Shown: positions 46,989-50,651 of the stretch, one piece after another | Layout: each line of letters begins with the position of its first letter | How positions within the stretch are numbered: the stretch's first letter is position 1 | From: Planctomycetota bacterium | GTDB taxonomy: Bacteria > Planctomycetota > MHYJ01 > JACPRB01 | Length of the DNA: 59,203 nucleotides | Direction of reading: 5' to 3' | NCBI GenBank assembly: GCA_035574235.1 | Contig: DATLZA010000175.1 | Coordinates: forward strand, 1 to 59,203 | The notes under the pieces: generated by a model | Told to the model about the DNA's origin: nothing | Databases searched by the model: none | What the model saw: the letters and a program-made list of their open reading frames with translations, nothing else | Program-made: the position numbers and the translations under genes

Positions 46989-47138
46989 ATCCCGCGATTT
47001 CCCCGGACGCCTGAACCGCCCTTCGGCTATACTCTCCTCAACGCGCAGTGGGGGCTAAAGATACGCCGGTCGACGCGCCCCTGGAGGCGCCGGCCGTATT
47101 CGAGGCGCGTCCCTCCCTGCGGGAAAGGAGGTGATCCA

Positions 47139-47177
47139 GTGCAGGTGGGTGAAAGTATTCGGAGGCTCTCGAGCTAG
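47139..47177 (+). CDS. 12-codon ORF behind a perfect extended Shine-Dalgarno
   Basis: GTG-initiated, 12 residues, TAG-terminated. The spacing from GGAGG to GTG is 7 nt, so it should be translated efficiently. It could be a leader peptide, or the truncated head of a bS21-like gene; after the TAG the same frame reads PREPRYSEPRE, loosely like the bS21 tail. Confidence 0.4.
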   Translation: MQVGESIRRLSS

Positions 47178-47232
47178 CGGGAGCAGGCGTGCTCTCGCCT
47201 GCCGCGGGAGCCACGGTACTCTGAACCTCGCG

Positions 47233-47272
47233 AAGGGGCCCCGTCCGGAAACGGCCGGGGCCCTTTCTTTTT
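47233..47272 (+). terminator. Intrinsic terminator of the structured transcript
   Basis: GGGCCCCGTCCG (47236-47247), loop GAAA, CGGCCGGGGCCC (47252-47263) with one mismatch, flanked by AAG and TTTCTTTTT. It ends before the 3' end of the convergent propeller gene. Confidence 0.8.
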
Positions 47273-47289: not shown

Positions 47290-48306
47290 TCACCGCCAGT
47301 CCGCCAGGAAGACGTTGAGGTCGCGCCGCGGATCGCGCGCGCCGCGGTTGGAGATGAAGACGAGCCGCCGGCCGTCCGGGGAGAAGTGGGGAAAGCTGTC
47401 GAATCCTTCGTGCCGCGTGAGCCGCCGGAGGCCCGTGCCGTCGGGACGGATCGCGTAAAGGGAGAAGCGGCCCGGCGCGTCGGCCTCCAGGTTGGAGGCG
47501 AAGACGATCGTCCGCCCGTCGGGGTGGAAGCAGGGAGCCCAGTTGGCCTTGCCGTTCCGCGTCAGCGCCCGCTCTTCGGTGCCGTCCGGGCGGGCCAGGT
47601 AGATTTCGAACCGGCATCGATTCGGACGCAGCACTCGCCGCGAGAGGAGCCTCCGATATTCTTCCTCTTCTTCGGGAGTCTCCGGATAAAAGGCGCGGTA
47701 GACCAGCCATTGTCCGTCGGGCGAGAAGAAGGCGCCGCCCGCGTAGCCGCGCCGGTGGTTCACTTTCCGGAGGCCGGTCCCGTCCACGTTCATCGTGTAA
47801 AGACCGATCCCGCCGTCGCGGTGGGAGGTGAAAACGATGCGCCGGCCGTCGGGAGCGACGGTCGCCTCGGCGTCGTAACCGTCGTGGTCGGTGAGCTGCC
47901 GGAGCGTGCCGTCGGTTTCGCGGAGGAAAAGGTCGAACGTGCGGTGGAACGCCCAGGCGTAGCCTTCGCGGCGGTCGGGCGGGGGGGGAGGCTCGGCCCC
48001 GTGGTGATGGGTGGAGGAGAAGATCATCCGCCCGTCCGGAAGGTAGTAGGCGCAGGTGGCCTTCCCGCGGCCGTCGGTGATCCGCCGGAGCGCGCGCGTT
48101 TCGAGGTCCAACTCGTAGATCTGGTCGGCCGCGTCTCCGGGGCGGACGGCCATGAGGACCAGGCGTCGTCCGTCGAAGGAGAAGTAGGCTTCCGCGTGGG
48201 TCCCGCCCTCGGTGAGGGGACGCGGGTCGCGGGGGTAGGGCTCGGGCGGCCCGGGCTCGAGCGTTCCGCATCCGGCCAGAAAGAGCGCAAGCCCCATGCG
48301 GCGCAT
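47290..48306 (-). CDS. TolB-like beta-propeller lipoprotein
   Basis: The 338-aa protein has a very short signal ending in LFLAGC (Cys13), a lipobox. The body is made of repeated PD40/WD40-like blades with S-P-D-G-R-x-L-V-F or similar motifs (for example APDGRRIVFTSHRDG, SPDGQWLVYRA, HPDGRTIVFASN, SPDGRRLVFISNRG), about six blades. Such proteins act as protein-binding or peptidase-associated scaffolds at the envelope. An acidic insertion EEEEE lies near residue 210. The start at 48306 lies 8 nt after TAGGAT, with TTGACG 17 nt further upstream. Confidence 0.78.
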   Translation of the reverse strand: MRRMGLALFLAGCGTLEPGPPEPYPRDPRPLTEGGTHAEAYFSFDGRRLVLMAVRPGDAADQIYELDLETRALRRITDGRGKATCAYYLPDGRMIFSSTHHHGAEPPPPPDRREGYAWAFHRTFDLFLRETDGTLRQLTDHDGYDAEATVAPDGRRIVFTSHRDGGIGLYTMNVDGTGLRKVNHRRGYAGGAFFSPDGQWLVYRAFYPETPEEEEEYRRLLSRRVLRPNRCRFEIYLARPDGTEERALTRNGKANWAPCFHPDGRTIVFASNLEADAPGRFSLYAIRPDGTGLRRLTRHEGFDSFPHFSPDGRRLVFISNRGARDPRRDLNVFLADWR

Positions 48307-49871: not shown

Positions 49872-50651
49872 GTGAAACGGAAAGGGGCGACGATTCTGGC
49901 GTGCCTGGCCGGTCTGGCCGCGGCGGCCGCGTCGGCTCACGCGGCGCAGGAGCCGGGGTTCGACCCGCTCCGCCTGGCCCGCGACGCGGGCAAACCGGAG
50001 AACGTCCGCGGAGCCCTCGACCTCGTCGTGGGACTCACGGTCCTTTCGCTCGCCCCGGCCCTCCTGGTCCTGGTCACGTCGTTCACCCGCATCGTCATCG
50101 TCCTTTCCTTCGTCCGGCGCGCGATCGGCGCCCCGGAGCTTCCGCCGAATCCCGTCCTGACCGGCCTGGCCCTCCTTCTCACGTTCATGGTCATGGCTCC
50201 CACCTTCGGAGCCGTCAAGCGCGATGCGCTCGATCCCTATACGCAGCCGGCCCCGGAGCGCCGCATCTCCCAGGAGGAAGCCTTCCGGCGCGCCTCGGGA
50301 CACCTGCGCGCCTTCATGTTTCAGCACGTCCGCGTCCGGGATCTCGGGCTCTTCATGGATCTGAGCCGCCAGCCCCGCCGGGAGCGCGGCTGGACGCCGG
50401 ACGACGTCCCGACCGAAGTCCTCATTCCCGCCTTCGTCACAAGCGAACTGCGCCGGGCCTTCGTGATGGGCTTCGCGATTCTCCTGCCGTTTCTCGTCAT
50501 CGACCTCGTGGTCTCGGCCGTCCTCGTCGCGCTGGGCATGTTCGTCCTGCCCCCCGCGGTGGTCTCGCTGCCCTTCAAGGTCCTGCTGTTCATCCTGGTG
50601 GACGGGTGGAACCTCGTCGTGGGATCGCTGGTGAAGAGTTTCCATGGATAG
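49872..50651 (+). CDS. fliP: Flagellar export gate protein FliP
   Basis: The 259-aa protein has a signal peptide (residues 1-27) and the FliP helices. VVGLTVLSLAPALLVLVTSF and TSFTRIVIVLSFVRRAIG are nearly invariant in the family. The C-terminal PAFVTSELRRAFVMGFAILLPF is also typical. FliP pentamers with FliQ and FliR form the export gate. It starts at GTG 49872 behind GGGGGACC and overlaps fliQ by 8 nt. Confidence 0.95.
   Translation: MKRKGATILACLAGLAAAAASAHAAQEPGFDPLRLARDAGKPENVRGALDLVVGLTVLSLAPALLVLVTSFTRIVIVLSFVRRAIGAPELPPNPVLTGLALLLTFMVMAPTFGAVKRDALDPYTQPAPERRISQEEAFRRASGHLRAFMFQHVRVRDLGLFMDLSRQPRRERGWTPDDVPTEVLIPAFVTSELRRAFVMGFAILLPFLVIDLVVSAVLVALGMFVLPPAVVSLPFKVLLFILVDGWNLVVGSLVKSFHG

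Follow-up and report, generated by a model that had tools for sequence, protein, structure and literature searches.

The stretch of DNA analysed here, called the window below, spans 59,203 nucleotides of a Planctomycetota genome and carries on its forward strand a short unit (47028-47272) with a complete complement of the 3' tail of 16S rRNA. The unit is real. It is neither an artefact, nor an rpsU gene, nor a leader acting in cis. From sequence comparisons we propose, with a probability of about one half, that it encodes a stand-alone, translated small RNA that would capture the 30S subunit and that belongs to a widespread single-copy family.

Organization of the RNA unit

The unit is composed of a -10 box, a structured leader of about 80 nt, a Shine-Dalgarno (SD) run, a mini-ORF, hairpins and a terminator, as read from the sequence (Table 1). 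An earlier sequence-only reading had listed the same parts, from the -10 box and leader through SD, GTG, 12 codons and TAG to the hairpins and terminator, and all are confirmed. It had also placed the GTG at optimal spacing after the SD. Both elements are present, but they overlap by one base, a G that ends the 17-mer and opens the GTG.

Table 1 Features of the RNA unit in the window
Feature	Position	Strand	Basis or remark
-10 box TATACT	47028-47033	+	TAGACT in G004, TATACT in G001
Transcription start, predicted	near 47040-47041	+	from the -10 box
Structured leader	47041-47121	+	CGCAG/CUGCG closes the minimum-energy fold; SD left mostly open
GAAAGGAGGTGATCCAG, exact 17-nt complement of the genome's own 16S rRNA 3' tail	47123-47139	+	
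Mini-ORF VQVGESIRRLSS: GTG (47139-47141), 11 further codons, TAG (47175-47177)	47139-47177	+	
Internal SD-like GGAGG, 9 nt ahead of the stop codon	47161-47165	+	
Stem P1, 5' arm GGCTCTCG, end of the ORF	47164-47171	+	fold; covariation in 31 members
Inner hairpin, between stop codon and P1 3' arm	47178-47203	+	fold
Stem P1, 3' arm CGGGAGCC	47205-47212	+	fold
Intrinsic terminator, long GC hairpin (47234-47263) and T-rich tail	47234-47272	+	scan

Scanning the unit yielded one terminator (0.3 expected) and no full two-hexamer sigma-70 promoter. The promoter assignment therefore depends on the -10 box, which is kept in two relatives. The fold of the RNA is more stable than those of 200 out of 200 shuffled sequences (z = -3.2). 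If transcription begins at 47040/47041, the SD is predicted to lie largely open, flanked by the leader domain and by the hairpin that follows, and a local GGA/UCC pairing shuts part of it only. For a transcript beginning at 47044, the prediction buries the SD more.

The gene upstream of the unit is a 100-aa ORF without Pfam match. The downstream gene, a PD40 beta-propeller (Pfam; minus strand, 47290-48306), is convergent and thus leaves the RNA no cis target. The sequence-only reading had considered a leader-peptide RNA. The layout of hairpin and ORF recalls attenuators and, by eye, a same-strand ORF may follow the unit in one relative (G001). However, a leader or attenuator acting in cis on the next gene is highly improbable in view of the convergent gene and of the mixed orientation of the downstream ORF in the family: among the 47 members with enough flank, it is the same in 27 and opposite in 18, and two have no such ORF. 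Within 200 nt past the stop, terminator-like sites were found in 62 of 108 members, compared with 9 for the opposite strand over this interval and 3 for the 200 nt upstream. Further along the window, Pfam identifies a FliP gene (49872-50651), followed by ORFs that we take to be more flagellar export genes.

The V-x-V-G-E-S start of the mini-ORF had suggested a decayed rpsU. This likeness is superficial and the idea can practically be abandoned. An intact rpsU exists elsewhere in the genome (C51:41651-41809, 57 bits, 74-aa open frame). Searching PF01165 in six frames, with stops read through, gave no S21 match at the unit up to an E-value of 10. Moreover, about 32 codons at most fit before the terminator, and the peptides of relatives lack the shared residues and do not track bS21.

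The complement of the 16S rRNA tail

The full match to the 16S tail noted from the sequence proved exact against this genome's own 16S rRNA: the 17-mer is perfectly antisense to its 3' end (C143:35707-35723, 100%; located by a 16S model match). A given 17-mer should arise about 5e-4 times by chance in 4.06 Mb, both strands included. The genome has a single instance of AAGGAGGTGRTCC followed by a start codon. An origin as an inverted copy of the 16S gene was considered and rejected. The match stops past the tail, where GCAGGT continues it in part, and relatives differ there.

Such a long run pairs with the 16S tail far more strongly than a usual SD, and it spans the whole single-stranded tail where initiation needs less. 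This excess would fit an RNA that matures or protects 16S rRNA by pairing with its 3' tail in 30S particles that are either immature (pre-30S) or resting, its ORF serving to test or clear mature ribosomes. We consider such a role distinctly unlikely, as no tie to rRNA processing was seen and protection needs no ORF.

Close relatives and the family in the phylum

DNA searches found the unit in two of four genomes of the same family, G004 and G001. The G004 copy is 79% identical over query positions 26-213, with the full SD, a leader of similar length and a 12-codon ORF ending in TGA. The G001 copy (L003:1460-1640, contig C385) keeps the core, the hairpin and a 12-codon ORF with a TTG start and a TAA stop. 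A stretch of about 66 nt, covering part of the leader and the front of the SD, is missing from it, which leaves GGTGATCC, 8 nt of 16S complement. Since hairpin and ORF persist there without most of the SD, either the full SD is dispensable or this copy is decaying or misassembled. The TAG and the hairpins singled out in the sequence-only reading thus fare differently: the position of the stop and stem P1 are kept, but the TAG itself is not.

A covariance model of the window, G004 and G001 sequences (R1) weakly flagged G016, from another family of the same class (E = 0.04). The anatomy is the same: full SD, ATG, 11 codons (MDSHKRRWLPT), TAG, a stem enclosing an inner hairpin, and a terminator. 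Other weak R1 matches in the class (G002, G006, G008, G010) were left out of the membership.

Across the phylum, a strict pattern (complete 16S-tail complement plus start codon) occurs in 16 of 392 genomes, once in each. Fourteen of these sites open ORFs of 11-19 codons and two enter longer genes. A looser pattern is found in 88 of the 392 genomes. Of 85 distinct sites examined, 62 open, at the first start, an ORF no longer than 35 codons, and some of these 62 are coincidences within genes; in the other 23 the first-start ORF exceeds 35 codons. Thirty-one members align well and share, in order, the SD, a start codon, a variable ORF, GAGG or GGGG with GGCUG, the stop, CGACGGGCC and GCAGCC. The CGACGGGCC segment is conserved in most relatives and absent from the window. 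In these 31 members, P1 (GGCUGC/GCAGCC) has 86% of cells paired, with 21 double-change cells. None of 500 shuffles scored as high and slid alignments gave 30-56% pairing. Taken singly, just 16 of 57 sequences reach p = 0.05, and the case for P1 is therefore one of covariation.

A second covariance model (R2) was built on the 31 members; the window trains both R1 and R2. A covariance model search had been suggested in the sequence-only reading. With an E-value threshold of 0.01, R2 retrieves members from 139 of the 392 genomes of the phylum, from 98 of the 217 that are of high quality and from 93 of 267 genera, nearly always as a single copy. The 253 genomes without match may reflect loss, divergence or incomplete assemblies. 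About 24 bits of the R2 score come from the SD alone, so that SD conservation among R2 matches is partly circular. The window unit shows the family features, namely an extended SD, a first-start ORF of 9-19 codons, P1 around the stop and a terminator.

Internal anti-SD sequences occur in 21 of 57 phylum members (20% in shuffles). A self-sequestering switch based on them was rejected as a general feature of the phylum; the arrangement is clear in Rhodobacteraceae only (15/18). In seven loci (L345, L347, L349, L351, L353, L237 and L238) a downstream GGATCACC has the sequence of part of the 16S tail, and in most of them GATCC follows shortly after; this segment may be an internal partner of the SD. 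In G293, contig C1 (several sites, for example 1076355-1076371), a repeated, transposase-like gene begins with MAMLQLEINDWAQENFGACQLGDVRRTRRAVK, and AAGGAGGTGGTCCCATG provides its SD and start.

The position of the stop is conserved, the peptide is not

Reading frames were compared in 60 R2 matches lying outside the SD-pattern results, a subset of all such matches. The first start after the SD opens an ORF of 9-19 codons in 58 of the 60 (10-17 observed), against 6 of 120 when the start is shifted by one or two bases; because related genomes are not independent, these counts, like those on the stop given below, are not probabilities. After removal of near-duplicates the figures are 43/45 and 6/90. 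L359 (28 codons) and L360 (5 codons) fall outside the range. Starts in the 58 are GTG (35), ATG (15) and TTG (8), and stops are TAG (35), TGA (12) and TAA (11). That the ORF is under selection, with all three start and stop codons in use, is well supported by these comparisons.

An ordinary base-pairing small RNA, with the SD run as seed or by-product and an incidental ORF, would account for a stand-alone transcript with a terminator, and Rfam labels the relatives as sRNAs. A start within the SD spacing window followed by an in-frame stop at the frequencies above would not be expected of an incidental ORF. We regard this explanation as rather unlikely.

The stop was also placed relative to the GAGG motif. 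Once duplicates, 16S antisense sites and sites near locus ends were removed, 96 sites were left, of which 46 have the motif and were tested. An in-frame stop lies 7-14 nt past GAGG in 37 of the 46, whereas the first stop of the other frames does so in 3 of 92. Among the 37, the motif is read in the three frames 27, 2 and 8 times. One and the same RNA motif, GAGGTGG, is accordingly read as RRW, RGG or EVV, and peptides are unrelated across the family.

A translated short ORF in a small RNA is also a feature of dual-function small RNAs and leader peptides. Here, the 12-residue peptide could be the product and the very strong SD a mere booster of its expression. Selection on the ORF agrees with this, as do peptides that are similar within lineages (an 18-codon VHHEVLEKxVGT type in Rhodobacteraceae, a GSTR-containing one in Betaproteobacteria) and the recurrence of VDSYCCSQKGGCS in one planctomycete genus. 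We nevertheless find a peptide-coding role unlikely, given the shifting frame of GAGGTGG and the divergence of the peptides within a single family, from VQVGESIRRLSS in the window to VGSSHGSRRLSR in G004 and LRSGQSIRRLSG in G001. The window family differs from dual-function RNAs and leader peptides in that its peptide is unconserved, it has no cis target and the position of the stop relative to the hairpin is kept.

Together, the frame test, the stop-to-GAGG spacing and the P1 covariation indicate that translation and the position of the stop are conserved. Conservation falls on the stopping point of the ribosome and not on the peptide. Because mini-ORF and in-frame stop are both selected, the RNA is probably translated and not merely bound. 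Because the stop position is kept and the peptide is not, it seems made to catch and position ribosomes, not to produce a peptide. A decoy or sensor engaging the 30S anti-SD had been among the earlier suggestions. It emerges strengthened, once amended to take in selection on the mini-ORF and on its in-frame stop.

A possible mode of action

In our proposal of a translated, 30S-capturing RNA, the full duplex with the 16S tail would capture a 30S subunit, and initiation would take place at the GTG. Translation of the throw-away ORF would then open the 5' arm of P1. Once the ribosome had reached the stop codon, the internal SD-like motif would sit at an initiation-like spacing and could pair again with the anti-SD. 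Ribosomes can be slowed by internal SD-like sequences. This second pairing may hold the terminating ribosome, or its 30S subunit, at a fixed place. As P1 would be opened by a translating ribosome, occupied and empty RNAs should differ in their fold. Most likely, the RNA would serve as a titrator or sensor of free 30S subunits and have its output through the 3' hairpin region or through RNA stability. Alternatively, the output in trans could be exposure of the CGACGGGCC segment in most relatives. The trans-acting output is the least certain step of the proposal.

Similar RNAs beyond the phylum

The window matches no Rfam family at its curated cut-off, and 6S RNA, SRP RNA, tmRNA and riboswitches were discarded as candidates since none appears even among its weak Rfam matches. 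Two Rfam families, Ms_IGR-5 and CC2171, nevertheless share the anatomy of the present RNA family and are its probable relatives.

Ms_IGR-5 (RF02471) is an actinobacterial sRNA with no stated function in the part of its descriptions considered here. Its consensus contains GGAAGGAGGUGGUCC, and both the long SD and GUGAGGUGGCUGCCCGCUAG are present in it. As in the window family, there is a short ORF, ending in ..UGUGAGGUGGCUGCCCGCUAG, with the stop 11 nt past GAGG and a hairpin and a terminator downstream. The window fits this layout (AAGGAGGUGRUCC plus a short ORF, stop about 9-11 nt past GAGG) with AAGGAGGTGATCC and GGAGG + 9 nt + TAG, but the frame of the Ms_IGR-5 ORF and the sequence of its stem are unlike those of the window. 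Ms_IGR-5, with a cut-off of 45 bits, is absent from the 12 Rfam matches of the window up to an E-value of 10. A relative from the phylum, L272, scores 42.7 bits with the same model (E = 1.1e-6), and a Candidatus Methylomirabilota MAG (L147:3319-3522), outside the name-giving Actinobacteria, reaches 63.8 bits. According to one report, ribosome footprints cover Ms_IGR-5 homologues in two mycobacteria, M. abscessus and M. smegmatis, and footprints were also seen on most characterized E. coli ncRNAs (PMC4974804). By analogy, the Ms_IGR-5 footprints would support ribosome engagement of the family.

CC2171 (RF01867), a Caulobacter sRNA, resembles GAAAGGAGGUGAUCCAGUG near its 5' end and finishes with a terminator. 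The window has both elements, but a leader of about 80 nt precedes its SD. It scores 31.2 bits (E = 4e-5) where the cut-off is 75; the match is restricted to the SD run and the terminator, and the closing stem differs. A Brevundimonas locus with a 21-codon ORF (L086) lies above the CC2171 cut-off. The Betaproteobacteria toxic sRNA (RF02278) and Bordetella S17 resemble the window unit as small stand-alone RNAs with a terminator; RF02278 is absent from the window's Rfam matches. S17 is reported to contain a 32-residue ORF, and these RNAs reportedly act through sequences complementary to mRNA ribosome-binding sites, unlike the window RNA with its complement to the 16S tail (PMC11722255). This candidate was set aside for its different mode of action.

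Scanning the genome collection with GAAAGGAGGTGATCCNRTGV, with T after the start codon excluded, returned at least 80 named loci. Among the 80 listed, the ORF does not exceed 35 codons in 63, one of which (L128) runs off its contig. The other 17 have longer ORFs, including several ordinary genes and two that are open at a contig end. The loci listed include Phycisphaerales, Pirellulales, Gemmataceae, Rhodobacteraceae-type, Brevundimonas, Reyranella and Betaproteobacteria, as well as records titled Deltaproteobacteria, Acidobacteriales, Myxococcota and Methylomirabilota.

All 18 Rhodobacteraceae-type RNAs listed have the full 16S-tail complement and exactly 18 codons, and in most of them an anti-SD mimic (CCTCC/CACCTCC) lies downstream. 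Their representative L071 has no Rfam match at the cut-off. The loci are L071, L075, L076, L078, L080, L083, L100, L113, L115, L117, L118, L119, L123, L131, L133, L135, L143 and L145. Betaproteobacteria-type RNAs, also stand-alone, share this SD, and their ORFs have 24-32 codons; GGATCA, a 6-nt candidate for an internal anti-SD, is present in 13 of the 17 listed in the scan, and the RNAs of L104 and L148 gave no Rfam match. These loci are L077, L081, L089, L092-L094, L096, L101, L104, L108, L112, L121, L124, L136, L146, L148 and L150. R2 scores some loci, for example L086, L072, L148 and L147, at 24-28 bits, the level of the SD alone. Scores of 31-37 bits for the delta, Acidobacteria and Rhodobacteraceae loci and L138 are suggestive of cross-phylum homology but are no proof; the alternative is convergence.

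We tentatively put forward, as a possibility less secure than the proposal for the window RNA itself, a cross-phylum RNA class whose members would recruit a ribosome by pairing with the entire 16S tail, have it translate a mini-ORF without meaning and make it park or terminate at a point set by a hairpin. Such RNAs would gauge free ribosomes in trans. The class would include CC2171 and Ms_IGR-5, as yet unrecognised as members, and would span Planctomycetota, Actinobacteria, Methylomirabilota, Acidobacteria and alpha-, beta- and delta-proteobacteria. To our knowledge, no described RNA regulator resembles such a gauge. Searches of titles and abstracts in the open-licence literature found no paper on such RNAs. 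If the proposal is true, many bacteria possess an RNA devoted to reporting on, or buffering, their free 30S subunits, a quantity central to growth control. The orphan families Ms_IGR-5 and CC2171 and the unnamed ones of Rhodobacteraceae and Betaproteobacteria would then share a function. The frame-independent stop offers a clean, testable signature: mutations should be harmful when they affect the stop and not when they affect the peptide.

Two further observations concern the scan. The alphaproteobacterial GTGTCT form, deliberately left aside by the scan pattern, is found in five contigs of the viral collection, with ORFs of 14-33 codons. The Rhodobacteraceae-type locus L135, with its 18-codon RNA, comes from a record titled Oceanobacillus and is probably a contaminant or a mislabelled contig.
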